From assembly GCF_019947135.1 (NCBI RefSeq), contig NZ_JAGSHT010000005.1:62001-126000 (forward strand): DNA of 64,000 bases, in the 5' to 3' direction. Of the stretch, positions 3,709-54,347 are shown piece by piece. The first letter of the stretch is position 1. Each line of letters begins with the position of its first letter. The position numbers and the translations under genes were made by a program. This DNA comes from Occultella gossypii. Lineage in GTDB: Bacteria > Actinomycetota > Actinomycetes > Actinomycetales > Beutenbergiaceae. The notes under the pieces are model-generated. The model had not been told where the DNA came from and made no database searches. It worked only from the letters and a program-made list of their open reading frames with translations.

Positions 3709-4512
3709 TCAGACGGTGGGTGTGCTGGTTGCGGTGGGGCGAGTTGCTCGTAGAGCGGCCCGACGCGCCGCCCGTGCCTCGAGGAACGCCGCCATCCGCT
3801 CCCCGAACTCGGTGCCCTGCAGGGTCGCGCGAGACAGCTCGGTCAGCGCCGCGGCCGCGTCCGGCATGCCGCTCGCGAGCAGTTCGCGGTTCAGCCATCG
3901 CTTGCTCCGGGCGGTGGCGTCGGGTGCGGCCGCGCCGATGCCCGCCAGGACCCGCTCGAGCGTCGCGTCGACATCGTCGACGGCGTAGCTGACCAGGTCG
4001 TGCTGCAGCGCCTCGGCGGGGCCGATCGTGTCGCCGACGAGCGCCAGCCGGGCGGCCAGGCGCCGGGTGGAGGATGACGGGACCGCCGCGAGGAAGACCG
4101 TCGGCCACGCTCCGATCCGGGTCTCCGGCAGCCCGAACGTGGCGCCGGGGCCGGCGATCACGACGTCGCTGACCACGACGATCTCCAGTCCGCCGCCGAG
4201 GGCGGCGCCCTCGACCACAGTGATCATCGGCAGGGGAGAGGCGGCCATCGCGGCGAAAGTCGGCAGCATGCCGTCGACGAAATACTCGATCGCGGCGTCC
4301 GGGCCGGCCAGGTCGCGCATGGAGTCGATGTCGTTGCCGGCGCAGAACGAGCGGGCGTCGCCGCGGATCACCACGGCCCGGTTGGCCGCGTCGTCGGGCG
4401 CCGCCTCGATGGCCTCGCGCAGACCGGTCCACGCGTCCAGGTCCATCGAGTTGCGCTTGGCGGGACGGTCCAGGGTCACCACGACGTGGTCGGACTTGTG
4501 CTCGATGATCAC
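3709..4512 (-). CDS. enoyl-CoA hydratase/isomerase family protein (crotonase fold)
   Basis: Cytosolic crotonase-fold enzyme of 267 residues acting on an acyl-CoA. It has the oxyanion-hole segments ARSFCAGNDI and EGAALGGGLEIVVVSD and both acidic positions used by hydratases (Glu in GGGLEI and Glu in LPETRIGAWPT), so hydratase activity is plausible. The RIGAWPT stretch is shared with the crotonase at 9615, so the two are paralogues within module A. The start is a GTG at 4512 that overlaps the TGA of the CoA-transferase (GTGA), with GGAG 10 bp upstream. A longer in-frame opening to 4686 overlaps the CoA-transferase and is rejected. The gene is the second of a two-gene leftward operon driven from the operator region near 6100. 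Confidence 0.9.
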   Translation of the reverse strand: MIIEHKSDHVVVTLDRPAKRNSMDLDAWTGLREAIEAAPDDAANRAVVIRGDARSFCAGNDIDSMRDLAGPDAAIEYFVDGMLPTFAAMAASPLPMITVVEGAALGGGLEIVVVSDVVIAGPGATFGLPETRIGAWPTVFLAAVPSSSTRRLAARLALVGDTIGPAEALQHDLVSYAVDDVDATLERVLAGIGAAAPDATARSKRWLNRELLASGMPDAAAALTELSRATLQGTEFGERMAAFLEARAARRAALRATRPTATSTPTV

Positions 4513-6062
4513 GATTGCTGCTCCAGGAGGATGGGGTCGATGGGGGCGAAGGCCGCGGCGGGCATCGGGCGCACGTCCCGCATGATCGGGCGCCAGGGCA
4601 GGTGCGCGAGGATGTCGCGCTCGAGGTCGAGTCCGGGCGCGACCTCGATCAGCGCGAGGCCGTCCGGGGTCAGCTCGAAGACGCACCGCTCGGTGACGTA
4701 GAGGGCTCGCCGGCCCTCCTCGGCGGCGAGGCGCCCGGAGAAGGTGACGTCGTCGACGTCGGCGACGAACTTCGCGACCTGACCCTCCCGCACGACCCGG
4801 GCTCCGCCGTCGAGCAGCTCGATCTGGAGGCCCTTCGCGCGGAAGGCGCCGCAGAACACGGACGTGCGCGCGTACTGGCTGATGTCGACGAAGCCGCCGG
4901 GGCCCATCACCTTGCCGCCGAACGCGGACACGTTCACGTTGCCGTGACGGTCGGCCTGCGCCATGCCCAGGCAGGTCACGTCGATCAGGCCGGCCGCGAA
5001 GGAGTCGAACTGGACCGCGGAACTGACCCGGGCGGACGGCCCGACGGACATCCCGAACAGGTCACCGAGCTCGGGGGCACCGTCGTAGAGGCCCTGCTCG
5101 ACGGCGAGGGTCACCTCGTGCAGGCGGCCCTCCTCCCGTAGCACTGCGCCGACGTCGGCGCTCATCCCGAAGCCGAGGTTGAGCACGTCGCCCTCGCGGA
5201 CCTCCATGGCCGCCCTGCGGGCGACGACGGCGCGGATCGGGTCGGTGAAACCGGCCGGCACGCCCTCGGGCGCGGGCGGTGCCGGGTCGAAGAGGGTGTG
5301 GTCCTCCTCGGTGAGGTAGGTCTGGCGCTGCTCGGGAACGACCACCACGTAGTCCACGAGCGCGGCCGGGATGAACACCCGGCGCGGGTCCAGCGGCGCC
5401 GTGGTGCGGCGCTTGACCTGGACGATGACGATCCCGCCCGAGCCCCGGGCCGCCTGGGCGCACTCGAGCGCGTCGAGGGTCGCGGGCTCGGCGTCGGCGC
5501 CGATGTTCCCGCGCTCGTCGACCTCGGTGCCGCGGATGATCGCAACGTCGACCTGGAACGGGCGGTAGCGCAGGTACTCGGTGCCGTCCAGCTCGAGCAG
5601 TTCGACGACGTCGTCGCGGGCGCTGGCGTTCGCGCGGCAGCCCTTGAGCCGGGGATCGGCGAAGGTGTGCAGGCCGGTCCGGGTGACCAGGCCCGGGCGG
5701 CGCGCACCGGACTCGCGCAGCAGGTGCGTGATGACGCCGGCGGGCATCGTGTACGCCTCGATCTTCTCCTCGGCGGCGAGGCGCATCATGGCCGGCGACC
5801 AGGTCCAGTGCCCACCGGTGACCCGCCGGACCATCCCCTCATGGGCGAAGCCGTTGAGGCCGCGGGACGCGCGGTCGCCGGCGCCGAGGGCGTGCACGAC
5901 GTGCAGGGCGCGGGGGGAGGACGTCGCCAGGAAGCGTCGCTCGATGGCACCGATCAGCTCGGTGGGCTCGAGCATCCCGCCGCCGTTGGCGGCCAGCGCC
6001 ACGGTGGCGCCGTCCTTGACCAACGCCGCGGCGTCATCGACCGAGAGCAACTCTGCTCGCAT
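4509..6062 (-). CDS. fused family I acyl-CoA:carboxylate CoA-transferase (YdiF/PCT type)
   Basis: CoA-transferase with alpha and beta halves in one chain (517 residues), as in propionate or acetate CoA-transferases. It moves CoA from a donor acyl-CoA to a free acid through a glutamyl-CoA thioester. The C-terminal half has the GxGM segment (VLNLGFGMSADVGAVLREEG) and the catalytic glutamate as E322 in AVEQG. It is more distant from the two CoA-transferases at 47825 and 52707: its N-terminus reads ALAANGGGMLEPTEL where they read TVSSSSGLGCPD. It is the first gene of the leftward operon, so it probably activates the acid handled by module A (inference). Acyl specificity cannot be read from sequence. 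Confidence 0.9.
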   Translation of the reverse strand: MRAELLSVDDAAALVKDGATVALAANGGGMLEPTELIGAIERRFLATSSPRALHVVHALGAGDRASRGLNGFAHEGMVRRVTGGHWTWSPAMMRLAAEEKIEAYTMPAGVITHLLRESGARRPGLVTRTGLHTFADPRLKGCRANASARDDVVELLELDGTEYLRYRPFQVDVAIIRGTEVDERGNIGADAEPATLDALECAQAARGSGGIVIVQVKRRTTAPLDPRRVFIPAALVDYVVVVPEQRQTYLTEEDHTLFDPAPPAPEGVPAGFTDPIRAVVARRAAMEVREGDVLNLGFGMSADVGAVLREEGRLHEVTLAVEQGLYDGAPELGDLFGMSVGPSARVSSAVQFDSFAAGLIDVTCLGMAQADRHGNVNVSAFGGKVMGPGGFVDISQYARTSVFCGAFRAKGLQIELLDGGARVVREGQVAKFVADVDDVTFSGRLAAEEGRRALYVTERCVFELTPDGLALIEVAPGLDLERDILAHLPWRPIMRDVRPMPAAAFAPIDPILLEQQS

Positions 6063-6095: not shown

Positions 6096-6124
6096 ATGAC
6101 ACCGGTTTCCATCCTGTGTGTCAA
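6096..6124 (-). promoter_or_regulatory. leftward promoter with embedded LacI-type operator (module A)
   Basis: On the minus strand, TTGACA at 6124-6119 and TGTCAT at 6101-6096 have a 17-bp spacer. The operator core ATGGAAACCGGTGT (6112-6099) occupies that spacer. An identical 14-mer in mirror orientation lies at 6205-6218. A repressor bound here would block the CoA-transferase/crotonase operon. The best candidate is the LacI-family protein at 14026 (inference). Confidence 0.7.
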
Positions 6125-6197
6125 GTCGCGACCCTGCGTCACCGTGCGAACCCTAGAACTGGCACAAACCAATGGAATCGCTGGCTGAGCTCGTGTC

Positions 6198-6226
6198 TTG
6201 ACATATGGAAACCGGTGTTAGAGAGT
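6198..6226 (+). promoter_or_regulatory. rightward promoter with embedded LacI-type operator (module A)
   Basis: TTGACA at 6198-6203 is a consensus -35 box. A weak -10 (GAGAGT, 6221-6226) follows 17 bp later. The spacer holds ATGGAAACCGGTGT at 6205-6218, identical to the minus-strand copy at 6112-6099. The core ACCGGT is palindromic with a central CG, as in LacI/GalR operators. This would control the long operon from 6334 to 15072. Confidence 0.7.
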
Positions 6227-6333: not shown

Positions 6334-7704
6334 ATGCGTAGGAAAGCCCGCTTGGTAACGACGGTGGCGATCGCGACCACCGCCGCACTCACGGCGTGTT
6401 CGGGCTCGGGCACGCCCGGCACCGACGAAGGAGACGGCAGCGCCACGATCAACCTGTGGCACACCGAGTCCACGCCCATCACCGTCGAGGCGATGCAGGA
6501 GATCATCGACGAGTACGAGGCGGCCAACCCCGGCGTCGAGATCATCCAGGAGACCGTCGGGTGGGGCGACCTGCAGGTGAAGTTCCAAGCTGCCCTGGCC
6601 GCCGGCGACCTGCCCGAGATCACCCACGTCGAGCCGATGTTCGTGCGCACTCTGTACGGCCAGGACCTGCTGCTCCCGCTCGACGAGGTCGTCGAGTCCT
6701 TCGACGGCGACTACCTGCCGCAGTTGCAGGAGATGTTCGAGCTCGAGGACGGCCACACCTACGGCGTGGTGCACGCCTGGGGCACGGACACCACGACCTA
6801 CCGCGCCGACCTGTACGCGAACGCACCCGAGGCCGGCACTCCCGAGGACGTCACCACCTGGGACGAGTCGATCGCGCAGTGGTCCGCCGTGGCCGAGGCC
6901 AACCCCGGGGTCTCCCCGCTGCTGCTCGCCGGCGCCGCCGCGCACAACGTCAACGAGGAGGTGTACCTGTGGCTCGGCTCGAACGGCGGCACCCTCTTCG
7001 ACGAGAACGGCCACGTCACGATCGACACCCCGGAGATGATCGAGGTACTGGAGTACTGGAAGGAACTCAAGGACACCGGCATCCTCTCCCCGCAGTGGTC
7101 CTCCGCCGCCTACGCGGACAGCCTGAGCGGCCTCGCGAACGGCGATGCGGCGACGATCTACTCCTTCGGCCGCGCGGTGTACACGTTCCAGGAGCAGGCC
7201 CCGGACCTGGTGCCCGGGGAGGACATCCGGGTCTACGGCCCGCGTCCCATCGGCCCCTCCGGCGACGACTGGATCACCCAGCTCGACGCGGAGCCGTTCG
7301 TGGTGTTCAAGGACTCACCGGACGCCGACGCGACCGTCGACTTCCTGAAGTTCTTCTACGAGCACGACAACTACCTCAGCTGGATCGGCACCGTGCCCAC
7401 CCAGTTGCTGCCGGTCATGCCGTCGATGTTCGACGATCCGGAGTGGCAGGCGCTGCCCGAGGTGCAGGAGTGGGACTTCTGGATCGACGTACAGCGTGAG
7501 GCGCTGGAGTCCGGGCGCGCACACCCGCTCATGGTGACCAGTGCGGACGAGATGTCGCTGCCGTATCTGAGCGACCTGTACGGCTCGGCGATCCTCGTCG
7601 ACATGGTGATGGAAGTCGTCGAGAGCGGCGCCGATCCCGCCGAGGCCGCGGCCACCGCGCAGCAGCGGGCCGACGAGCTGCTCTCCCCGCAGTACCAGGA
7701 CTGA
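6334..7704 (+). CDS. extracellular solute-binding lipoprotein of a CUT1 ABC transporter (family 1)
   Basis: Substrate receptor of the module A importer, exported and anchored to the outer face of the membrane. The signal peptide has a lipobox LTAC with the lipidated Cys at residue 22. The mature protein shows family 1 features (ATINLWHTESTPITVEAMQ at the N-terminus). The start at ATG 6334 has the ribosome site AAGGAGG at 6323-6329; an upstream in-frame ATG at 6205 lies inside the promoter spacer and is rejected. Length (456 residues) is usual for the family. A strong hairpin (7712-7765) separates it from the permeases, a frequent way of keeping binding-protein mRNA in excess. Ligand unknown; sharing an operon with acyl-CoA enzymes is unusual for this family. 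Confidence 0.92.
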   Translation: MRRKARLVTTVAIATTAALTACSGSGTPGTDEGDGSATINLWHTESTPITVEAMQEIIDEYEAANPGVEIIQETVGWGDLQVKFQAALAAGDLPEITHVEPMFVRTLYGQDLLLPLDEVVESFDGDYLPQLQEMFELEDGHTYGVVHAWGTDTTTYRADLYANAPEAGTPEDVTTWDESIAQWSAVAEANPGVSPLLLAGAAAHNVNEEVYLWLGSNGGTLFDENGHVTIDTPEMIEVLEYWKELKDTGILSPQWSSAAYADSLSGLANGDAATIYSFGRAVYTFQEQAPDLVPGEDIRVYGPRPIGPSGDDWITQLDAEPFVVFKDSPDADATVDFLKFFYEHDNYLSWIGTVPTQLLPVMPSMFDDPEWQALPEVQEWDFWIDVQREALESGRAHPLMVTSADEMSLPYLSDLYGSAILVDMVMEVVESGADPAEAAATAQQRADELLSPQYQD

Positions 7705-7795: not shown

Positions 7796-8734
7796 ATGCT
7801 CACAGACACCCCCGCGCGTGCCGAGACCGGCACCGGTCCGCCGCTGAAGGCGGCGCGCAAGCCCCGCATGCCCCAGTGGTTCTGGGGCGTGCTGCTGGTC
7901 ATCCCGTCAGCCGTCCTGGTCCTCGGCGTCATCGCCGTGCCGATCGTGTACCTGGCGCGGCTCAGCCTGACCGACGCCCACGCGTACCTGCCCCGGATCA
8001 ATGACATCGGGCTAGGCAACTTCGCCAACCTCGCGGCCTCCCCGCAGTTCTGGCAGAGCCTGCGGACGACCCTCCTCTACGCGGTCCTCACCGTGGTGAT
8101 CCAACTCGTCCTCGGCGTCATCGTGGCCCTGCTGATGCACCAGAACTTCCGCGGCCGCGGCGTCGTCCGTCTCATCGCGATCGCGCCCTACATGATCCCG
8201 GCGATCATCGTCGCCCTGGTGTGGCGCTGGCTGCTCGAGCCCAACAACGGCGCCTACTCCTGGATCGTGCGGACTGTGGTGCCCGGGGCGGACGCGGTGA
8301 ACCTGCTCAGCCCCACCTGGATCTTCGCGTCCCTGGTGATGGTCTCGGTCTGGATGTACACGCCGTTCGTGGTGATCAGCGTGCTGGCCCGGCTGCAGAC
8401 CGTCGATCCGTCCGTGATCGAGGCCTCCACGGTCGACGGCGCCGGCCCGTGGCGCCGGTTCTGGCACATCATCCTGCCCGAGCTGAGCGCGGTGCTGCTG
8501 ACCCTGGCACTGCTGCGGTTCATGTTCATGTTCACGAAGTTCGACATCGTCTATCTCTTCGCCGGGACCGGCCAGGAGGTCCGGACGCTGCCGCTGCTGA
8601 CGTTCCAGACGATCTTCGGGGAGTCCCGGCTCGGCGCCGGGGCGAGCCTGGCGATGGTGATGTTCGTCCTGCTCGTCGTCTTCACGACGGTCTACCTCAA
8701 GACCCTGCACCGACGCTCGGAGGACACCGAATGA
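7796..8734 (+). CDS. CUT1 ABC transporter permease, MalF class (module A)
   Basis: Inner-membrane permease of 312 residues with about six membrane segments, the first at about residues 27-55 (FWGVLLVIPSAVLVLGVIAV). The EAA loop is EASTVDGAGPWRRFWH followed by IILPEL near residue 210, the docking site for the ATPase. It overlaps the next permease by 4 bp (ATGA at 8731). It works with the binding protein at 6334. No ATPase gene is present in this operon, so a shared ATPase elsewhere in the genome is likely (family knowledge). Confidence 0.92.
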   Translation: MLTDTPARAETGTGPPLKAARKPRMPQWFWGVLLVIPSAVLVLGVIAVPIVYLARLSLTDAHAYLPRINDIGLGNFANLAASPQFWQSLRTTLLYAVLTVVIQLVLGVIVALLMHQNFRGRGVVRLIAIAPYMIPAIIVALVWRWLLEPNNGAYSWIVRTVVPGADAVNLLSPTWIFASLVMVSVWMYTPFVVISVLARLQTVDPSVIEASTVDGAGPWRRFWHIILPELSAVLLTLALLRFMFMFTKFDIVYLFAGTGQEVRTLPLLTFQTIFGESRLGAGASLAMVMFVLLVVFTTVYLKTLHRRSEDTE

Positions 8735-9567
8735 GCACCCTGAAGCGACTCACCCAGCCGCGGTACGTCCTGGCCATCGGCATCGGCATCGTGGTGGCGG
8801 TGAACCTGTTCCCGTTCTACTGGATGGTCCTGACGTCGGTGAAGCCCGGCACCGAGCTGTTCTCGAACCCGCCGCGGTTCTTCACCACGATGCCGGACTT
8901 CGGTGCCTACGTCCGGCTCATCGAGAGCACCGGATTCCTCACCTTCGCCAAGAACAGCGTGATCATCTCCATCGGCTCCACGCTGCTCTCGATCGCGGTC
9001 TCGGCGATGGCCGCCTACGGGCTCACCCGCTTCAAGTTCCCCGGCAGCAAGGCCTTTACCACCGGGATCCTGTACGCGTACACGTTCGCCCCGATCGTCG
9101 TCGTGGTGCCGCTGTACGGACTGTTCCGCGACCTGGGTCTGATCAACACCTACGGCGGCATGATCCTGGCGTACGCCTCGTTCGGGGTTCCGTTCAGCAT
9201 GTGGCTGCTGCGCCCGTTCTTCAACTCCATCCCGAAGGAGCTCGAGGAGGCCGCGTTCCTGGACGGCGCGAACCGGATCAAGAGTGCCTGGTACGTCGTC
9301 CTGCCGCAGGCGACCCCCGGCATCATCGCCGTCTCGGTGTTCACCTTCCTGCTCGCCTGGGAGGACTACCTGTTCGCCCGGGTGCTCATCACGGACACGA
9401 ACATGAAGACGCTGCCCGTCGCCCTGCACGATCTGCAGAACGCCAGCCTGCAGGACTGGCCGCTGTTGATGGCCGCCGCGGCCCTGGTCAGTCTGCCCGT
9501 GCTGCTCGCGTTCCTGTACCTGCAGAAGTACCTGATCGCCGGCTGGGGCGCCGGCGCGATCAAGTGA
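8731..9567 (+). CDS. CUT1 ABC transporter permease, MalG class (module A)
   Basis: Second inner-membrane permease of the module A importer, 278 residues. It has the N-terminal MalG signature NLFPFYWMVLTSVKPGTELF, six membrane segments and the EAA loop ELEEAAFLDGANRIKSAW followed by VVLPQA. The C-terminus YLIAGWGAGAIK matches the common MalG ending (the G-A-V/I-K tail). The start ATG overlaps the stop of the MalF-class gene. Downstream, 47 bp separate it from the crotonase at 9615 with no terminator, so transporter and enzyme genes appear co-transcribed. Confidence 0.92.
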   Translation: MSTLKRLTQPRYVLAIGIGIVVAVNLFPFYWMVLTSVKPGTELFSNPPRFFTTMPDFGAYVRLIESTGFLTFAKNSVIISIGSTLLSIAVSAMAAYGLTRFKFPGSKAFTTGILYAYTFAPIVVVVPLYGLFRDLGLINTYGGMILAYASFGVPFSMWLLRPFFNSIPKELEEAAFLDGANRIKSAWYVVLPQATPGIIAVSVFTFLLAWEDYLFARVLITDTNMKTLPVALHDLQNASLQDWPLLMAAAALVSLPVLLAFLYLQKYLIAGWGAGAIK

Positions 9568-9614
9568 GCGTCACCGACCAAGCCCGCCACCGCCAACACG
9601 AGGAGCAGTCGCAG

Positions 9615-10388
9615 ATGTATGTGAAGTTCGAGGTCCGGGACGATGCCGCCTGGATCATCATCGACCGGCCGGGCAAGCTCAACGCCCTGGACATGGACGG
9701 GTGGCACGGGATCACGGCGGCACTGCACCAGGCGGCGGCCGAGGCACCCGGGCCCGTGGTCCTGACCGGCACCGGCCGCGCCTTCTGCGCCGGCGACGAC
9801 ATCGCCACGTTCGCCCAGCACACCACCCGCGAACGAGCCCACGACTTCTTCATCGGTGGCCTGCTCGGGACAATGGAGGCCATCGCCACCCACCCCTACC
9901 CGGTCATCGCCGGGGTCAACGGGCTGGCGGTCGGCGGCGGCTGCGAGCTCGTGCTCGTCTCCGACCTGGCCATCGCGGCCGAGTCCGCGAGGTTCGCGCT
10001 GCCCGAGGGCCGCATCGGGGCCTGGCCCACCGTCCAGGTCGGCGTGGCGGCACACGAGAGCGGACGCAAGCTGGCCAACGAGATGGCGTTCGAGATGGGC
10101 TGGGTGCCCGCCGCCGAGGCGCCTCGGTTCGGGCTCGTCAACCGGGTGGTCCCCGATGAGGACCTGGAGGACGAGATCGAGCGGACCATCGCCCGGATCC
10201 GCGCCGGCTCCCCGCAGGCGCAGCGGCTGACCAAGCGGTTCCTCAACGAGGAACTCGTGGCGACCGGCCTGCCGAAGGTCCGTCGTGCGCTGGAGGCCCT
10301 CATCGACGAGACCCTGCCCACGCGCGACCTGCAGGAGGGCACCAGCGCCTTCCTCGCCAAGCGCCAGCCGACCTTCATCGACGCGTGA
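9615..10388 (+). CDS. enoyl-CoA hydratase/isomerase family protein (module A)
   Basis: Crotonase-fold enzyme, 257 residues. Oxyanion-hole segments GRAFCAGDDI and NGLAVGGGCELVLVSD and both catalytic-type acids (GGGCEL; LPEGRIGAWPT) are present, so hydration or isomerisation of an enoyl-CoA is chemically possible. It is closest within the window to the crotonase at 3709, with the same RIGAWPT stretch and a similar C-terminus. The start is ATG 9615 with AGGAG upstream. It lies between the permeases and the CaiB gene in one long operon, so it should act on the CoA ester made by CaiB or by the fused CoA-transferase (inference). Confidence 0.9.
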   Translation: MYVKFEVRDDAAWIIIDRPGKLNALDMDGWHGITAALHQAAAEAPGPVVLTGTGRAFCAGDDIATFAQHTTRERAHDFFIGGLLGTMEAIATHPYPVIAGVNGLAVGGGCELVLVSDLAIAAESARFALPEGRIGAWPTVQVGVAAHESGRKLANEMAFEMGWVPAAEAPRFGLVNRVVPDEDLEDEIERTIARIRAGSPQAQRLTKRFLNEELVATGLPKVRRALEALIDETLPTRDLQEGTSAFLAKRQPTFIDA

Positions 10389-10399
10389 GGACGCCCTCC

Positions 10400-11620
10400 A
10401 TGACGAACATCCTTCCCCTCGAGGGCATCCGCGTCCTCGACTTCGCCCACATGATGCAGGGCCCCTGGGCAGCCGAGATGCTCGCCGACCTCGGCGCCGA
10501 TGTGATCAAGGTCGAGGCCGTCGACGGCGGTGAGCGGGGCCGCCAGTCCGGCACCACGTTCCTGAACGGCCACAGCTCGCAGTTCCTGGCGATGAACCGG
10601 AACAAGCGGTCGGTCGCCGTGAACCTCAAGGACCCGGACGGGCTGCGGGTCGCCCTGCGCCTGATCGAGAGCGCGGACGTGCTCGTGCAGAACTTCCGGC
10701 CCGGCGTGATGGACCGCCTCGGTCTGGGCTGGGACCGGGTCCACGACCTGAACCCCCGGCTGGTGTACTGCTCGGCCTCCGGGTACGGGCCGCACGCCGC
10801 GGACCAGCGGATGCCGGGCCAGGATCTGCTCGCCCAGGCCCGCACCGGTGCGCTCTGGCTGACCGGGACCCGCGACGCCGACCCGACGCCCGCCGGCCCG
10901 TTCGTCGCCGACGTCCACGCCGCCACCATGCTCGCCCTCGGCGCTGCCTCGGCACTCGTGGAGCGGGTCCGCACGGGCACCGGCCGGCTGATCGAGGTGG
11001 ACCTGGTCGGCGCCATGCTGCACCAGACCACCCAGGAGGTCGTCACCGCGATCAACTCCGGCACGGCGCCGGTCCGGCCGACGGTGCCAGGCAGCGCATC
11101 CATCGAGGCCCCGTACGGCGTCCACGCCACTCGCGACGGCTTCGTCGCGATCTCGTTGACGACCATGGAGGCGCTGGCGGAGGGCCTCGGCCGGCCGGGC
11201 CTCCTCGCGGACTTCCCGGACAAGCAGGCCGCGACCGAGCGCCGCGAAGAACTGAATGCCCGCGTGAGCGCACTGGTCGCGACCATGGACTCCGCCCCGT
11301 GCCTGGACGCGCTGAGCGCGGCGGGCGTGTGGTGCGCCCCGGTCAACGACTATCCGGCGATGATGGCCGACCCGATGGTCGCCTGGCCGGAGCGCCGCGT
11401 CCAGGTGGACCACCCCGAGGCGGGCCGTCTCGACCTGGTCGGCAACCCGATCAGGGTCGACGGCGCCCAGCTGCCGGCCCGCCGCCCTGCCCCGCTGCTA
11501 GGCGAGCACACCGGCGAGCTGATCGCCGAGCTCGGCCTCACCGACGAGCTCGACGCACTCCTGGCGAAGGGCGCCATCGGCGCCGGAGCCGAGCAGTTGG
11601 CCGAGCGAGTGACCTCATGA
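10400..11620 (+). CDS. CaiB/BaiF family III CoA-transferase (module A)
   Basis: Family III CoA-transferase, 406 residues. These enzymes transfer CoA directly between an acyl-CoA and a free carboxylate through an aspartyl intermediate. Visible features are the N-terminal LEGIRVLDFAHMMQGPW, the CoA-binding-type stretch NRNKRSVAVNLKDPDG, VLVQNFRPGVMDRLGLGW, and the candidate catalytic Asp142 in GQDLLAQARTG. A GTG at 10385 overlapping the crotonase stop is possible, but ATG 10400 is better placed after GAGGA. The gene at 56365 is a full-length paralogue with the same segments. It ends in a 4-bp overlap with the MaoC gene. The acid substrate is unknown. Confidence 0.92.
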   Translation: MTNILPLEGIRVLDFAHMMQGPWAAEMLADLGADVIKVEAVDGGERGRQSGTTFLNGHSSQFLAMNRNKRSVAVNLKDPDGLRVALRLIESADVLVQNFRPGVMDRLGLGWDRVHDLNPRLVYCSASGYGPHAADQRMPGQDLLAQARTGALWLTGTRDADPTPAGPFVADVHAATMLALGAASALVERVRTGTGRLIEVDLVGAMLHQTTQEVVTAINSGTAPVRPTVPGSASIEAPYGVHATRDGFVAISLTTMEALAEGLGRPGLLADFPDKQAATERREELNARVSALVATMDSAPCLDALSAAGVWCAPVNDYPAMMADPMVAWPERRVQVDHPEAGRLDLVGNPIRVDGAQLPARRPAPLLGEHTGELIAELGLTDELDALLAKGAIGAGAEQLAERVTS

Positions 11621-12069
11621 GTGCCACCGGACGGCGCGACGGGCTCCCCGCCGTCGGCTCGGCCGTTGTCTTCCGCAAGACCGTCACCGAGGCGGACGTC
11701 GGCCTGTTCGCCGGGATCACCGGCGACTTCGCGCCGCAACACACCGACGAGGAGTACATGCGCGAGCGCCCCCAGGGCCGGCGGATGGCGCACGGCACCC
11801 TCGTGCTCGCGCTCACCTCCACCGCGGCGGCGCGGCTGTGCACCGAGCACGACGTCACGGCCGTCTCCTACGGCTACGACCGGGTCCGGTTCATCCGGCC
11901 GGTGTTCCTCGGGGACACGGTCCGAGTGGAGTACACGATCGCGTCCGTCGATCCCGGGCGCCGCCAGGCCGTCGCCGAGATGCGCGCGACCACCCGGCAG
12001 GGCGAGGAACTCGTCCTGGTCGGGACCCACATCCTGTACTGCTACCCGGACGAGGATGGTGCGTCATGA
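11617..12069 (+). CDS. MaoC-like hotdog-fold (R)-hydratase (module A)
   Basis: Small single-domain hotdog protein, 150 residues, probably hydrating an enoyl-CoA or dehydrating a hydroxyacyl-CoA. The hydratase-2 motif is ITGDFAPQH: Asp37 and His42, the catalytic pair of (R)-hydratases, are present, but the Asn normally between them (GDxNPxH) is Ala39. The paralogue at 57591 has the same change. The YGYDRVRFIRPVFLGDTV stretch matches the usual core. It overlaps both neighbours by 4 bp (ATGA at 11617 and at 12066), which indicates tight co-translation with CaiB and the ACAD. Confidence 0.9.
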   Translation: MSATGRRDGLPAVGSAVVFRKTVTEADVGLFAGITGDFAPQHTDEEYMRERPQGRRMAHGTLVLALTSTAAARLCTEHDVTAVSYGYDRVRFIRPVFLGDTVRVEYTIASVDPGRRQAVAEMRATTRQGEELVLVGTHILYCYPDEDGAS

Positions 12070-13250
12070 TCAGCGGGCTGGAAGAGTTCATCCGCACCGA
12101 CGTCGCCCCGCGGGCGCAGGAGATCGACCGCGACGCGACGATCCCGCCGGAGCTGGTCGGGGCGGCCGCCGCCCTCGGCCTGCAGCGGATCCTCGCCGGC
12201 CCCGGCGGTCGCCCGGACGCGACCAGGATCGAGGAGGCTTGTGAGGTGTCGCAGGCCATCGCCGCCCACTCGCCCGCGGTCGCGCTCGCCATCGCCGGGA
12301 CGAGGCTGACCACCTACCTGCTCGGCAAATATGCGCCGGCGCACCTCGTCGACCGGTGGCTCGAACCCACGCTGGCCGGGCGGACGTTCGGGTCGTTCGC
12401 GATCACCGAACCGCATGCCGGCACCGACATCCGCGGGATGAGCACCGTCGCCGAGCTCGACGGGGACCGGTACATCCTGAACGGCGGCAAGTGCTGGGTC
12501 GGGTTCGCCCCGGTCGCCGACTTCGCGATCGTGCTCGCCAAGGTCGGGTCCACCGACCGGGACGCGCCGATGGTCGCGCTCGTGGTCGACATGGCAAGCG
12601 CCGGCGCGTCCGGCCGCCCGGGACCGGAACTCTCCGGCTTCCGGGGCATGCCCAACGGTGAGCTGACCTTCACCGACGTGTCCGTGCCCGCCACCGACAG
12701 GCTGGGCGTGGAGGGCTTCGCCGGCATGATGGACGGGCTCAACATGGCCCGGATCGACGCCGCCGCTTACGCGTGCGGGCTGCTCCGGGGAGCACTGGTC
12801 GCCAGCCTCGAGCGGGCGAACGGACGGGCCGCGTTCGGGCGGCCGCTGGCCGACCTGGCGATCATCCAGCGCAAGATCGGCCGCATCGCGACCGACTATC
12901 ACGCGGCCCGGGCGCTGACCCAGCGGGCGGCACGCTCGTTCGCCGACGGGACCGGGGGCGACCAGGACCTCATCTCGATGGCGAAGATGTTCTCCTCCGA
13001 CGCGGCCCGGCGGGCCACCGACGAGGCAATGCAGATCCACGGCGCCCTCGGCATCGTCACCGACGAGCCGGTCAACCGGATGCACCGGGACGCGAAGGTG
13101 ACCCAGATCTTCGACGGCACCAGCGAGATCCACGAGACCATGCTCGGGCGACGCGCCCTGCGGGCGCAGTCCGCCGGCCGCCTTGTACCGTTCGTGGACG
13201 ACGAGCCGGCCGCTGAACTCAGCGCGCCCGGAGTAGGGGGCAGGCGATGA
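12066..13250 (+). CDS. acyl-CoA dehydrogenase family protein with non-canonical active site (module A)
   Basis: FAD-dependent acyl-CoA dehydrogenase fold, 394 residues. The N-terminal helical domain is followed by the beta domain (FGSFAITEPHAGTDIRG, ILNGGKCWVGFAP) and the C-terminal four-helix domain (AAFGRPLADLAIIQRKIGR; QIHGALGIVTDE). The position that normally holds the catalytic Glu (IYEGT in medium- and short-chain enzymes) is Asp350 in QIFDGTSEIHE. The alternative position used by isovaleryl- and long-chain enzymes is Ala228 (GLNMARID). The paralogue at 58025 shows the same two changes. It may be a slow dehydrogenase, a reductase-type enzyme like CaiA, or catalyse something else. It sits between the MaoC and SDR genes with 4-bp overlaps. 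Confidence 0.9.
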   Translation: MISGLEEFIRTDVAPRAQEIDRDATIPPELVGAAAALGLQRILAGPGGRPDATRIEEACEVSQAIAAHSPAVALAIAGTRLTTYLLGKYAPAHLVDRWLEPTLAGRTFGSFAITEPHAGTDIRGMSTVAELDGDRYILNGGKCWVGFAPVADFAIVLAKVGSTDRDAPMVALVVDMASAGASGRPGPELSGFRGMPNGELTFTDVSVPATDRLGVEGFAGMMDGLNMARIDAAAYACGLLRGALVASLERANGRAAFGRPLADLAIIQRKIGRIATDYHAARALTQRAARSFADGTGGDQDLISMAKMFSSDAARRATDEAMQIHGALGIVTDEPVNRMHRDAKVTQIFDGTSEIHETMLGRRALRAQSAGRLVPFVDDEPAAELSAPGVGGRR

Positions 13251-14029
13251 CTGACGGCGGTCGAACGGGCCCGACGGCGGAGGCGCCGCTGGGTGGGTCG
13301 GTGGCCCTGGTCACCGGTGCGGTGGGTGCGCTCGGGGCGGCCATCTGCCGCGACCTCGCCCGGGCAGGGGCCGACATCGTGGTGCACCACCTGCGTCAGG
13401 ACGAGCAGGCCCGTGCCCTTTGCGGTGAGCTGGAGGCTCTCGGTGCCCGCACCGTCTCGGTGTCCGCGGACGTGACGGATCCCGATGAGGTCGCCGCCGC
13501 GCTGACGCGCGCGCAGGATCACCTGGGTCCGATCGATACCCTGGTCAACAACGCGGGGTGGATGGAGTCACGGCGACTCGTCGACACCGACCTGGCCCAG
13601 TGGCGCCGGACCATGTCCGTCGACATGGACGGGGTCTTCATCGTCACCCGCCAGGTGGTTCCGGGGATGCTGGAGCGAGGGGAGGGGCGCATCGTGAACG
13701 TGAGTTCGCAACTCGCCTTCAAGGGAGCCACCGACTTCGTCGCCTACTGCACCGCGAAGGCCGGGCTGCTCGGTTTCACCCGGGCGCTGGCCCGCGAGAT
13801 CGGACCCGTCGTGCGCGTCAACGCCATCGCACCCGGGCCGATCGACACCCCGATGGTGACCCCGCACGCCACACCTGAGTGGGTACACGCGCGCACCCGC
13901 GACTCCGTCATCGGTCGGCTCGGCCTGCCCGAGGAGATCGGTCCGGCGGTCACGTTCCTGGTCGGCCCCGGCGCGTCGCTGTTCCACGGACAGACGCTGC
14001 ACCTGAACGGTGGCGGGGTGCTGGGGTGA
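13247..14029 (+). CDS. short-chain dehydrogenase/reductase, FabG-like (module A)
   Basis: NAD(P)-dependent oxidoreductase, 260 residues, classical SDR. The cofactor-binding glycine motif is TGAVGALG (variant of TGxxxGxG), followed by NNAG at 101-104, Ser153/154 in NVSSQ and the catalytic Tyr167/Lys171 in YCTAK. It most likely oxidises a 3-hydroxyacyl-CoA, or the reverse, in the module A pathway (inference from context). It overlaps the ACAD by 4 bp and the LacI gene by 4 bp. The paralogue at 59176 shares the NVSSQLAFKGA and ARALAREIGP segments. Confidence 0.91.
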   Translation: MTDGGRTGPTAEAPLGGSVALVTGAVGALGAAICRDLARAGADIVVHHLRQDEQARALCGELEALGARTVSVSADVTDPDEVAAALTRAQDHLGPIDTLVNNAGWMESRRLVDTDLAQWRRTMSVDMDGVFIVTRQVVPGMLERGEGRIVNVSSQLAFKGATDFVAYCTAKAGLLGFTRALAREIGPVVRVNAIAPGPIDTPMVTPHATPEWVHARTRDSVIGRLGLPEEIGPAVTFLVGPGASLFHGQTLHLNGGGVLG

Positions 14030-15072
14030 GCAGCAAGCCCACGATCAACGACGTCGCGGCGCGGGCCGGGGTGTCGAAGGCGACCGTCTCCAAGTACCTC
14101 AACGTGGCCCTGGGCTACTCGGTCGCGCCGAAGACGCGGGCGAAGATCGAGGACGCGATCCGCGACCTCGACTTCCACCCGAACCCGATCGCACGCAGCC
14201 TGACCAGGGGTTCCTCGATGACCATCGGCCTGGTCATCGCCGACATCAAGAACCCGTTCTTCCCCGACCTCGTCGCCAGCGTGCAGGAGATCGTCGAGGC
14301 CGGCGGCTACAACCTGATCCTCGGGAGCTCCGGTCGCGACACCGGCCGGGAGATCGAGATCATCCGGTCGATGGTCCAGCGGCGCGTCGACGGCCTGGTC
14401 CTGGCCTCGGTCCAGGGCGGCTCCGAGGACCTCGAGTTCGTCGAGGAACTGGGCCTGCCGACCGTGCTCGCCAGCCGCGATCTGCCCGAGCTCATCTGGG
14501 ACACGGTGGTGATCGACAACGTCCAGGGCGCCGGGATCGCGGTCAAGCACCTGCGCGACCTCGGCCATACCCGGATCGGGTACGTCGGGAGCAACCCGAC
14601 GGTCAAGCCGTTCCTGGACCGGCTGCACGGCTTCGAGGCGGCGACGGCGGACCTTCCGGAGGCCGTCACGGTCACCGTGGGCTCGATGATGGAGGACGGT
14701 CGGCTCGGCACCCACGAGCTGCTCGCGCGCGCACCGCGGCCCACCGCGCTGCACTTCGCCAACGACGTGATGGCCCTCGGCGGGCTCGTCGCGTGCGCCG
14801 AACTGGCGCTGAGCGTGCCCTGGGACGTGTCGATCATCGGGCATGACAACATCACCGCGGGATCGCTGCCCGGCATCGGGCTCACGACCGTCGACAGTGC
14901 CGCCGCCTGGGTGGGTGAGCGCGCCGCCGAGATGCTGCTGGAGCGGATCCGGGGCGAGAAGGCCGACAGCGAGTCCCCGCAACTCGTGGTGCGACCGGCC
15001 AAGCTGATCCTGCGGTCCTCGACGGCGCCACCCCCCGAGAGCCGCAACGGCGGGCAGGTACCCGCGCGGTAG
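14026..15072 (+). CDS. LacI-family transcriptional regulator (module A)
   Basis: Repressor-type regulator, 348 residues. The N-terminal LacI helix-turn-helix is at about residues 5-25 (TINDVAARAGVSKATVSKYL), followed by the hinge region and a periplasmic-binding-like sensor (TIGLVIADIKNPFFPDLVAS; later VSIIGHDNI). The start is a GTG that overlaps the SDR stop (GTGA), so it is the last gene of the operon and is co-transcribed with its presumed targets. The most likely binding sites are the mirror-image operators at 6099-6112 and 6205-6218, giving autoregulation of both divergent operons. The effector is presumably the imported substrate or an early intermediate (inference). Confidence 0.9.
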   Translation: MSSKPTINDVAARAGVSKATVSKYLNVALGYSVAPKTRAKIEDAIRDLDFHPNPIARSLTRGSSMTIGLVIADIKNPFFPDLVASVQEIVEAGGYNLILGSSGRDTGREIEIIRSMVQRRVDGLVLASVQGGSEDLEFVEELGLPTVLASRDLPELIWDTVVIDNVQGAGIAVKHLRDLGHTRIGYVGSNPTVKPFLDRLHGFEAATADLPEAVTVTVGSMMEDGRLGTHELLARAPRPTALHFANDVMALGGLVACAELALSVPWDVSIIGHDNITAGSLPGIGLTTVDSAAAWVGERAAEMLLERIRGEKADSESPQLVVRPAKLILRSSTAPPPESRNGGQVPAR

Positions 15073-47858: not shown

Positions 47859-49489
47859 GGCGCGGCAGGGACGGGTGGGCGTCCCGCAGGCATGAGCAAT
47901 GGTCGACGGCGAGGGCCGAGTTCCAGCTGTGGCGCGACTTCCCGGAAGAGCCTGTGGTCCATCAGGCGAAGGTCGTCGCTGACCAGCAGGTCGCAGTCGG
48001 CGCGGTCGAGGACGTCCCGCCGGAGGTCGATGCCGGGGGCGATCTCGGTGACCTCGAGTCCTGCGGGGGTCAGGCGCAGGACTGCGCGCTCGGTCACGAC
48101 CGTCACCTGCTGCCCACGGTCGAGGGCATTGCGCGCAGCGAAACTGATCTGCGCGACGTCGGTGACGAACTTCGCGACGTCACCGTCCTGGCGGATGGTC
48201 AGGCGCCCGTCGCCGACCTCGATGTCCCGGCTGCCGGCGGTGAAGTATCCGGAGAGGACGACGTGCGGCGCGAATGTCGTGATGTCGGCGAAGCCGCCGA
48301 TACCGACCGTGACGTGCGACCGACTCGGCAGGTGGGAGACGTTGACATCGCCGGTTCCAGATATCTGGAGGAAGGACAGCATGGCGACGTCGATGCCGCC
48401 GCCGGCCAGCAGGGTGAACTGGTCGATGCTCGGCATCAGCGCATGCGGGTTCATTGCGGAGCCGAACGCGAAGCCGGTGAGCGGGAAGCCCCCGATCGGT
48501 CCCTGCTCGATGACCCAGGTCACCTCGTCCTCGTGACCGGCCTCGAGCAGCACCCGCGGCACCCCAGCGGACAGGCCGAAACCGAGGTTGACGATGTCGT
48601 CGTGGTGCAGCGCTGCGGCGGCCCGCCGGGCGATGACCTTCTCGGGTCCCCACGGCAGTGGCTCGATCTCGGCCAGCGACCGGGACGCCTCGCCGGAGAT
48701 CGTCGGGTCATAGGAGATCTGGGTCGTCTGCATCTGCTCGGGGACCACGACCACGACGTCCACCACGATCCCAGGGACGCGCACCGTCGACGGCGGCAAT
48801 CTGTCCGGGCTAGTCCGCTTCACCTGGGCGATCACGATGCCGCCGTTGTTGTGGGCGGCATACGCCTGATCGAGTGCCCCGAGGGTGCCGCCCTCCTGCT
48901 CGAAGCTGAGGTTGCCGAACGGGTCCGCCGTGGTTGCCCGGATGATCGCGACGTCCACACTGAGCGCGGGATAGAACAGCCAGTCCTTGCCCGCCAGGTG
49001 CTCGATCCGCACGAACTCCTCGGTGGCGGCGTTCATCCGTGCCCCGTCCTGTCTCGGGTCGGCGAAGGTGCCTGCACCGACCTCGGTCAGGACGCCGGGC
49101 TGCCGCGTGGCCGCGGCGCGATGCATCTGGAAGAGCACCCCTGAGGGGATGTTGTAGGCCTGCACGCCACCGCTCTCGATGAGTGCGCGCACCGCGGGGG
49201 GACCGAAGTCGGACGGACCCGACGGCAGGCTCCCCGCGAACAGCCGGCTCAGCTGCCCGGGTTGCTCGGCGAGATGGTCGATGCCCTTGATGCCGTACAT
49301 GTCGCCGGCGGCGATCGGATGGATCAGAGTGAGTCCGCCCGGGGCTGAGGTGTCCCGGTATCGACGGCCCAGCGCTGCCAGCACGGCATCGGGGCAGCCG
49401 AGGCCGGACGAGGAGGAGACGGTGACGGTCGCGCCGTCGGCAATGAGGCCGACGGCCTCGTCGGCGGTGACGATCGGTGGGGTGCGCAT
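47825..49489 (-). CDS. fused family I CoA-transferase (module B, left copy)
   Basis: Acyl-CoA:carboxylate CoA-transferase with alpha and beta halves in one chain, 554 residues from ATG 49489 (ribosome site GAAGGAG). N-terminal VTVSSSSGLGCPDAVLAALG and IHPIAAGDMYGIKGIDHLAE match the right copy at 52707. The catalytic Glu is in VIEQGPIGGFP. The C-terminal about 35 residues (from about GPRRRPLLM) are unlike the right copy and run antisense through a VOC gene remnant, so the original C-terminus has been replaced. It diverges from the TRAP genes; LacI-type operators lie in the 282-bp gap between them. Confidence 0.9.
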   Translation of the reverse strand: MRTPPIVTADEAVGLIADGATVTVSSSSGLGCPDAVLAALGRRYRDTSAPGGLTLIHPIAAGDMYGIKGIDHLAEQPGQLSRLFAGSLPSGPSDFGPPAVRALIESGGVQAYNIPSGVLFQMHRAAATRQPGVLTEVGAGTFADPRQDGARMNAATEEFVRIEHLAGKDWLFYPALSVDVAIIRATTADPFGNLSFEQEGGTLGALDQAYAAHNNGGIVIAQVKRTSPDRLPPSTVRVPGIVVDVVVVVPEQMQTTQISYDPTISGEASRSLAEIEPLPWGPEKVIARRAAAALHHDDIVNLGFGLSAGVPRVLLEAGHEDEVTWVIEQGPIGGFPLTGFAFGSAMNPHALMPSIDQFTLLAGGGIDVAMLSFLQISGTGDVNVSHLPSRSHVTVGIGGFADITTFAPHVVLSGYFTAGSRDIEVGDGRLTIRQDGDVAKFVTDVAQISFAARNALDRGQQVTVVTERAVLRLTPAGLEVTEIAPGIDLRRDVLDRADCDLLVSDDLRLMDHRLFREVAPQLELGPRRRPLLMPAGRPPVPAAPPTRCGATSHA

Positions 49490-52706: not shown

Positions 52707-54347
52707 ATGAAGAAAGTCGAGATCCTCACCGCGCGTGCGGCGGCCGACCTCATCGAGGACGGCGACGTCCTCACCGTCAGCTCGTCGTCCGGGCTCGGGT
52801 GTCCGGACTCGGTGCTGCAGGGGATCGGTGAGCGGTTCAGGCAGACGCAGTCCCCGCGGGGACTCACCTCGGTCCACCCGATCGCGGCCGGGGACATGTA
52901 CGGCATCAAGGGCATCGACCACCTCGCCCAGCCCGGCCTGCTGACGCGGGTAGTGGCGGGCTCCTACCCGTCCGGGCCGTCGTCCGCGGAGCCGCCCGCG
53001 ATCTGGTCCATGATCGAGAACGAGCAGGTCGAGGCGTACAACTTTCCGTCGGGCACGCTGTTCCAGATGCACCGGGCCGTCGCGGCCCACCAGCCCGGCG
53101 TGCTGACGAAGGTCGGCGAGGGCACCTTCATCGACCCGCGTGATCGCGGTGGTCGCATGAACGAGACCACGCCGGCGGATATCGTCGAGTTGCACACCGT
53201 CGGGTCCGAGGAATGGCTCTTCTTCCGTTCGATCGTCCCCGACGTAGCGATCATCCGGGCGACCACGGCCGACGAGTACGGCAACCTCACATTCGAGGAC
53301 GAGGGCTCGCCGCTCGGAGCGCTCGACCTCGCCTATGCGGCCCACAACAACGGCGGCCTGGTCATCGCCCAGGTGAAGCGTGTGGCGAGCGGTCGCAGCC
53401 TCGACCCCCAGAAGGTGCGCGTCCCTGGAATCCTCGTGGACGCCGTCGTCCTCGACCCGGACCAGATGCAGACGACCGGCACCCGCTACGACCCGGCCAT
53501 ATCCGGGCAGCTGCGCCGCCCACTCGCGGACCTGCCCCCGGTCGCGTATTCGCTGGAGAAGGTGATGGCCAGACGCGCAGCTCAAGAACTGGCTGAGGGC
53601 GAGACCGTCAACCTCGGCTTCGGCGTCTCCGCCCTGGTACCGCACGTTCTGAACGAGGAAGGTCACGGTACTGCCGTCTCGTGGGTGCTCGAGCAGGGCG
53701 CGGTCGGCGGCGTCCCGTTGCTCGACTTCGCCTTCGGCTGCTCACAGAACCCCGACGCGATCATGCAGAGCGCGGACCAGTTCACGCTCCTGCAGGGGGC
53801 GGGCTTCTCCCACACGCTGCTGTCGTTCCTGGAGATCGACGCCCGCGGCAACGTCAACGTCCATCACCTCCCTCGCCGCCGGCACGTCACGGCCGGGGTC
53901 GGTGGCTTCGCAGACATCACCGCGGCCGCCCCGGAGATCGTGTTCGTCGGCTCGTTCACGGCCGGACGGCGCCAGATCGAGGTCGGTGCCGACGGACTCG
54001 GCATCGTCGAGGACGGCCCACACACGAAGCTGGTGCCAGAGGTTGCCGCGGTGACCTTCAACGGCCAACTGGCGCTGCGCCGGGGCCAGCGGGTGATCTA
54101 CGTGACCGAACGCTGCGTCATGGAGTTGCGACCTGAGGGCATCACGGTCACCGAGATCGCGCCCGGCGTCGACCTCGACCGGGACGTGTTGGCCCGCAGC
54201 GCCTTCCCGCTGCTGGTCAGCGACGACCTGCGGCTCATGGACACCGTGCTGTTCCGCGACGGCGCGATGGGCCTGACCCTGCCCAGACATCCGGCGCACG
54301 AGCGGCTGGTCCGACGCGCCGGCGCCGCGGACGGGAGCCCCCGATGA
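52707..54347 (+). CDS. fused family I CoA-transferase (module B, right copy)
   Basis: Acyl-CoA:carboxylate CoA-transferase, 546 residues, alpha and beta halves fused. VLTVSSSSGLGCPDSVLQGI and HPIAAGDMYGIKGIDHLAQP match the left copy at 47825. VNLGFGVSALVPHVLNEEG precedes the catalytic Glu in WVLEQGAVGG. It has its own native-looking C-terminus (HPAHERLVRRAGAADGSPR), unlike the left copy. The start is ATG 52707; TTG 52698 is possible. It overlaps the crotonase by 4 bp (ATGA at 54344). It probably charges the acid imported by the TRAP system (inference). Confidence 0.91.
   Translation: MKKVEILTARAAADLIEDGDVLTVSSSSGLGCPDSVLQGIGERFRQTQSPRGLTSVHPIAAGDMYGIKGIDHLAQPGLLTRVVAGSYPSGPSSAEPPAIWSMIENEQVEAYNFPSGTLFQMHRAVAAHQPGVLTKVGEGTFIDPRDRGGRMNETTPADIVELHTVGSEEWLFFRSIVPDVAIIRATTADEYGNLTFEDEGSPLGALDLAYAAHNNGGLVIAQVKRVASGRSLDPQKVRVPGILVDAVVLDPDQMQTTGTRYDPAISGQLRRPLADLPPVAYSLEKVMARRAAQELAEGETVNLGFGVSALVPHVLNEEGHGTAVSWVLEQGAVGGVPLLDFAFGCSQNPDAIMQSADQFTLLQGAGFSHTLLSFLEIDARGNVNVHHLPRRRHVTAGVGGFADITAAAPEIVFVGSFTAGRRQIEVGADGLGIVEDGPHTKLVPEVAAVTFNGQLALRRGQRVIYVTERCVMELRPEGITVTEIAPGVDLDRDVLARSAFPLLVSDDLRLMDTVLFRDGAMGLTLPRHPAHERLVRRAGAADGSPR

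Follow-up and report, generated by a model that had tools for sequence, protein, structure and literature searches.

Genes and inverted repeats of the divergent locus

The window, i.e., the whole 64-kb stretch of DNA that was analysed, contains a 271-bp gap between the starts of two divergently oriented genes, one encoding a CoA-transferase (start at 6062) and the other a solute-binding protein (start at 6334). Two copies of the 14-mer ATGGAAACCGGTGT face each other head-on within this gap. The features of the locus are as follows.

3709..4587, minus strand: crotonase (enoyl-CoA hydratase-like), encoded second in the leftward operon and named from its sequence and its resemblance to the rightward operon's crotonase
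4509..6062, minus strand: family I CoA-transferase with fused alpha and beta parts, first gene of the leftward operon (Pfam CoA_trans, FadX-like)
6096..6124, minus strand: candidate leftward promoter, with TTGACA at 6119-6124, a 17-bp spacer at 6102-6118, and the -10 box TGTCAT at 6096-6101
6099..6112, minus strand: left 14-mer ATGGAAACCGGTGT, exact match, core of the putative operator TGGAAACCGGTGTCAT (6096-6111, minus strand)
6198..6226, plus strand: candidate rightward promoter, with TTGACA at 6198-6203 and a weak, uncertain -10 box
6205..6218, plus strand: right 14-mer ATGGAAACCGGTGT, exact match, core of the putative operator TGGAAACCGGTGTTAG (6206-6221, plus strand)
6334-7704, plus strand: solute-binding lipoprotein, rightward operon (Pfam SBP_bac_8/SBP_bac_1)
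7796-8734, plus strand: carbohydrate-type permease 1, rightward operon (Pfam BPD_transp_1)
about 8734-9567, plus strand: carbohydrate-type permease 2, rightward operon
9567..14029, plus strand: catabolic genes of the rightward operon, named by Pfam (MaoC-like hydratase and acyl-CoA dehydrogenase from the reading of the open reading frames) and given singly in the next four lines
9567 to 10388, plus strand: crotonase
10385-11620, plus strand: CaiB-type CoA-transferase
between the CaiB-type gene and the SDR gene, plus strand: MaoC-like hydratase and acyl-CoA dehydrogenase
13247-14029, plus strand: SDR, overlapping lacI (14026-15072)
14026..15072, plus strand: LacI-family repressor encoded by the last gene of the rightward operon and proposed to bind both sites (Pfam LacI and Peripla_BP_3)

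The preliminary description had placed the 14-mer twice, in opposite orientations, and both copies are indeed exact. The whole genome (5,844,339 bases) holds just these two copies and no third, and when the 271-bp gap was shuffled 5000 times, one shuffle contained an inverted exact repeat of at least 14 nt. By its sequence, the importer belongs to the carbohydrate type, whereas the enzymes encoded in the operon act on CoA thioesters.

The product of 14026-15072 matches PF00356 at residues 6-53 and PF13377 at residues 173-333, both above the cut-offs, and its closest solved structures are PurR, RbsR, and CcpA, the PurR match spanning residues 6-337. It combines the two parts that mark the LacI/GalR family, an N-terminal LacI helix-turn-helix and an effector domain resembling periplasmic binding proteins. 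Its recognition helix reads SKATVSK and its hinge NPIARSL. The helix pattern [ST]K[AGS]TVSK is common to all LacI orthologues whose sequence covers the helix, and all orthologues have the hinge NPIARSL or SPLARGL, sharing the hinge leucine. In LacI/GalR regulators, the leucine of the hinge helix inserts at the central CG of the operator.

Two further observations concern the surroundings of the locus. Genes for fused family I CoA-transferases number at least four in this genome, with three inside the window (the divergent one, 47930-49474, and 52713-54245, the latter two at 109930-111474 and 114713-116245 of contig C27) and a fourth on contig C5 (164349-165869), suggesting that Occultella is rich in CoA-thioester catabolic clusters. 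A XylR-like regulator gene (1392-2573), combining a LacI-type effector domain with a C-terminal AraC helix-turn-helix, is conserved near the locus in all four Occultella species and is oriented away from the minus-strand gene of a sugar-type ABC permease (214-1215).

Candidate operators and the accompanying LacI lineage

Each 14-mer is preceded by a perfect consensus TTGACA, at 6119-6124 on the minus strand and at 6198-6203 on the plus strand, as the preliminary description had it. The leftward -10 box is TGTTAT in O. glacieicola and TGTYAT across the four Occultella species, which by its sequence would be an acceptable sigma-70 -10 element. The rightward -10 box appears weak, the candidates being GAGAGT (6221-6226, spacing 17), a poor match, and TAGAGA (6219-6224, spacing 15). 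Because the -10 boxes are weak, a scan with the sigma-70 consensus (9-of-12) reported no promoter at these sites. Both copies had been assigned to the interior of a 17-bp spacer; this is correct for the right copy, which lies wholly inside, whereas the left one extends 3 bp into the -10 box TGTCAT. The 14-mer starts 6 nt after TTGACA on the left and 1 nt after it on the right, so that the registers differ by 5 nt, or about half a helical turn.

The same arrangement of CoA-transferase, solute-binding protein, and LacI orthologue (85-95% identity) was found in three further Occultella species. Both 14-mers and both TTGACA boxes are unchanged in all four Occultella genomes, and the rightward TTGACA is retained together with TTAnAnAGTGTG in each of them. 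Thus, all motif columns (28/28) and all TTGACA columns (12/12) are invariant among the four species; the corresponding numbers are 10/73 for the columns between the -35 boxes and 91/217 for all non-motif columns of the gap. Outside the two gap sites, exact GGAAACCGGTGTYA has no occurrence in the four Occultella genomes.

The putative operator is 16 bp long, with the consensus TGGAAACCGGTNTCCA and its dyad between ACC and GGT, i.e., an even palindrome with a central CG, and it recurs before orthologous operons. A perfect palindrome, GGAAACCGGTTTCC, is present in the genome G451. The Occultella operators depart from the palindrome at their outer positions, the departure being greater in the right operator (GTGTTAG half). 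Read as LacI-type palindromes, they have dyad centers at 6103/6104 and 6213/6214, 110 bp apart. Even palindromes with a central CG are the usual operator form of the LacI family (1173/1303 TFs; PMC4052901). When a matrix built from non-Occultella operators only was scanned over the window, the left site ranked first (23.8 bits) and the right site second (19.0 bits). The near matches L088, L089, L097, and L139 were considered as further regulon members and rejected, since no regulon gene adjoins them; L088 and L089 look like one coding sequence found in two genomes.

Orthologues of the LacI protein were sought in a sample of 395 genomes from the class. An orthologue with 54-59% identity is present in ten genomes of family f38, close relatives that count as one lineage, and all ten carry GGAAACCGGTNTCC ahead of the gene for the orthologous solute-binding protein. 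Nine of them have the operon on one contig, and there TTGACA is followed after 2-3 nt by AYGGAAACCGGTGTCCA; the exact Occultella 14-mer occurs at this site in one of the nine. A second site in these nine genomes follows 23-33 bp farther downstream, immediately ahead of the solute-binding protein gene and in a single promoter, and these two sites are the only exact occurrences of GGAAACCGGTNTCC in the whole genome of each. The tenth genome (G481) is fragmented: one site precedes its solute-binding protein gene on a separate contig (L129), and the contig with the LacI neighborhood ends within the SDR gene. The gene order in the other nine is solute-binding protein, two permeases, crotonase, CaiB, MaoC-like, acyl-CoA dehydrogenase (leaving out G557 and G467), SDR, CoA-transferase, LacI. 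The rightward catabolic genes of Occultella follow the same order, the extra CoA-transferase of f38 being situated between SDR and LacI, and the importer orthologues are 67-76% identical.

In another genus of Occultella's own family (G014; LacI identity 49%), a single exact GGAAACCGGTATCA is situated between lacI and the next importer operon. This site overlaps a TATCAT box and shares its register with the left site of Occultella. A search of the family's 24 genomes for exact GGAAACCGGTRTYA gave two copies in each of the four Occultella genomes, always in this gap, one in G014, and none in the remaining 19. Another genome with LacI orthologues (G017, 72%) has no site on the contigs seen, and its operon starts fall outside those contigs. 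This genome seems to have three fragments (L077, L078, L079) coding for near relatives of the LacI protein (72-74%), and SDR and acyl-CoA dehydrogenase genes accompany two of these, so that the cluster looks duplicated.

The same site precedes related operons accompanied by the same repressor lineage in distant actinobacteria, and for this reason both Occultella sites are very probably LacI docking sites; their assignment as putative LacI-type operators is well supported by sequence comparison. Conservation of the 14-mer upstream of orthologous clusters, which the preliminary description had proposed as a check, was observed for both copies in 4/4 Occultella, with a related site in 10/10 f38 genomes and one in G014. 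Its other proposal, that the LacI gene ending the rightward operon encodes the ligand, appears likely in view of the co-conservation of site and LacI over three lineages, and we assign the 14026-15072 protein a high probability of being the cognate ligand of both sites.

Proposed repression mechanism and its alternatives

The sites, the degree to which they are conserved, and their association with the LacI lineage are observed; from these we infer binding, repression, induction, and autoregulation as follows. A dimer of the 14026-15072 protein would bind both 16-bp operators, each between the -35 and -10 boxes of its own promoter, where bound repressor and RNA polymerase would exclude each other. 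If both sites are operators of this protein, the two operons would be repressed jointly: in the absence of inducer, neither the importer/CoA-thioester operon nor the divergent CoA-transferase/crotonase operon would be expressed. The inducer, probably the imported compound or a derivative of it, would free both operons. The lacI gene, being the last of the rightward operon, would be autoregulated, provided that this operon forms one transcript. Taken as a whole, repression of both promoters by a LacI dimer through two spacer operators, released by an inducer, is very likely on these comparative grounds. There is a close synthetic parallel in the lac spacer-operator library Pspacer, where lac operators within a 17-bp promoter spacer give strong repression and act in direct competition with RNA polymerase (PMC7804116); the present case differs in being natural, in involving two divergent promoters, and in having a similar instance, with TTGTAACCGGTTACAA, at a paralogous CoA-transferase gene. 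Such simple competition with RNA polymerase is likelier than DNA looping.

Looping had been proposed in the preliminary description, over about 106 bp. This value holds as the offset between the two 14-mers, and not as the operator spacing: since the copies are inverted and the dyad is off-center in the 14-mer, the dyads are farther apart, by 110 bp in the window and in O. glacieicola and by 111 bp in the other two Occultella. A repressor that joins both operators in a loop of about 106-111 bp, giving cooperative shut-off as in gal or lac, is consistent with the two operators flanking the inter-promoter DNA in all four Occultella. It also has a precedent in E. coli gal, where a LacI/GalR-type repressor without a C-terminal tetramerization tail acts on two operators about 110 bp apart (OE and OI, HU-stabilized loop), the operator centers being 113 bp apart (PMC4693257). 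LacI tetramerizes through a C-terminal helix and GalR through a C-subdomain surface, and GalR loops without the C-terminal tail (PMC3877293), so that a GalR-like surface contact is conceivable here. However, several observations argue against a loop. The LacI orthologues end soon after the core (...LILRSSTAPPPESRNGGQVPAR or ...RTSTAPPR), and their alignment reveals no leucine-heptad helix, the LacI-type tetramerization tail. The leaders are about as stable in length (114-115 bp on the right, 32-36 bp on the left) as the inter-site DNA, and the conserved spacing is therefore no special evidence for a loop. The gal system represses best with spacings of 103, 113, and 123 bp, and repression is lifted at 108 and 118 bp (PMC4693257); the 110-111 bp found here lies between the optimum at 113 and the minimum at 108, although the phase depends on the helical repeat assumed in vivo. 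Whole-genome exact search revealed no distant second site in the f38 relatives, which have the paired sites 23-33 bp apart instead. Moreover, the gal operators flank the overlapping promoters of one operon, and their loop has been shown (PMC4693257), whereas here each operator lies within its own divergent promoter and a loop finds no support. Looping is thus possible but not favored, and we regard it as unlikely.

The sites might instead belong to another regulator, either a LacI paralogue encoded elsewhere or the XylR/AraC-type protein of 1392-2573. The genome has about 90 LacI-like first-look candidates, so a paralogue could share the site, and the XylR-type gene is near the locus in all four Occultella. 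In f38 and G014, however, the sites accompany the lineage of the 14026-15072 protein, and an even palindrome with a central CG is a LacI form, whereas direct repeats are the usual targets of AraC-type proteins. In G014 the XylR-type relative is located at C1:1886906, a long way from the operon (about 403000-422000), and the XylR/AraC protein was rejected as ligand on this ground. Overall, a different regulator is quite improbable.

Activation or dual regulation from the spacer, in the manner of MerR, is very improbable. It would suit the position of the sites inside promoters and the poor rightward -10 box, which resembles those of some activated promoters. Nonetheless, the spacers are 17 bp long, whereas those of MerR promoters are 19-20 bp, and the half-turn difference between the two registers is ill-suited to a single activating geometry. 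Near matches (1-3 mismatches) occur frequently, and the ones inspected (e.g., L089) lack a neighboring regulon gene, but a chance repeat or duplicated promoter DNA devoid of regulatory role is contradicted by the conservation, the uniqueness, and the co-occurrence with the LacI lineage, and can practically be dismissed.

Proposed regulon and its probable history

Under the preferred reading, repression of both operons by the 14026-15072 dimer, the regulon resembles the local LacI regulons of RegPrecise (Ravcheev et al., 2014; PMC4052901) in that the regulator gene is inside its own operon, the sites are even 16-bp palindromes with a central CG in promoter regions, and the importer is a carbohydrate-type ABC system; the paired f38 sites, 23-33 bp apart, are near the catalogue peaks at 22 and 32. 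It differs in its enzymes, which are CoA-transferases, crotonases, acyl-CoA dehydrogenase, and SDR. Since nearly 90% of the catalogued LacI-TFs are local regulators of sugar pathways (PMC4052901), CoA-thioester enzymes under a LacI regulator are unusual. The terms "acyl-CoA" and "CoA transferase" do not occur in the main text of that study, and searching the literature for LacI control of an importer/CoA-thioester operon like this one brought up nothing relevant.

The divergent CoA-transferase (4509..6062) is 90-97% identical to its counterparts in other Occultella, 75-77% to those of Georgenia, and 73-74% to a paralogue in its own genus; the enzymes of f38 and G014, with a mutual identity of about 75%, match it at only 46-47%. 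The CoA-transferase gene of these relatives is within the LacI operon or cluster, in f38 between SDR and lacI. No CoA-transferase of the same family occupies this place in the Occultella operon, where the two genes overlap (13247-14029/14026-15072). The crotonase of 3709..4587 likewise has a counterpart after the CoA-transferase in the Occultella loci L027 and L031 (79-93%) and in Georgenia (64-69%). From these comparisons, a Georgenia-type CoA-transferase/crotonase pair seems to have arrived beside the operon, come under the control of its regulator, and taken the place of the in-operon gene, with the replacement presumably running in this direction.

The paralogous CoA-transferase gene of Occultella has a different site, the perfect 16-bp palindrome TTGTAACCGGTTACAA after TTGACT or TTGACA, and the O. 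glacieicola locus has a different LacI gene nearby, with the helix VATVSR. No site of the ATGGAAACCGGTGT type was found beside the Georgenia CoA-transferase genes, which have a different palindrome instead. Another LacI-type palindrome (TTGTAACCGGTTACAA, ATGTATCCGGTTACAT) was observed in or near the promoter of the paralogous CoA-transferase/crotonase loci of both genera: at 9954-9969 of L030, about 50 bp before the CoA-transferase gene in L020, L021, and L022 (reverse complement), and upstream of that gene in L029 and L053. The Georgenia loci with this palindrome also have a different LacI gene with the helix VATVSR nearby.

We tentatively propose, as a broader picture with somewhat less than an even chance of being right, that this LacI lineage, present in at least three actinobacterial groups, runs a carbohydrate-type importer together with a pathway of CoA thioesters resembling beta-oxidation, probably for a non-sugar substrate, and that the regulon was rewired in Occultella, where the in-operon CoA-transferase would have been lost in favor of the divergent pair and a spacer operator would have switched from one LacI specificity, that of the TTGTAACCGGTTACAA type, to another.

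The switch itself is of an ordinary kind, and the regulon and its history of rewiring are modestly interesting. The analysis assigns a regulator and a putative operator to an uncharacterized importer/CoA-thioester pathway of several actinobacterial groups, and this assignment may offer a route to the inducer and substrate of the pathway. It also points to a probable case of regulon rewiring, in which the same enzymatic step moved from the operon to a divergent unit equipped with a copy of the operator, and for which the paralogue in the same genome, under a different LacI-type operator, provides a comparison.
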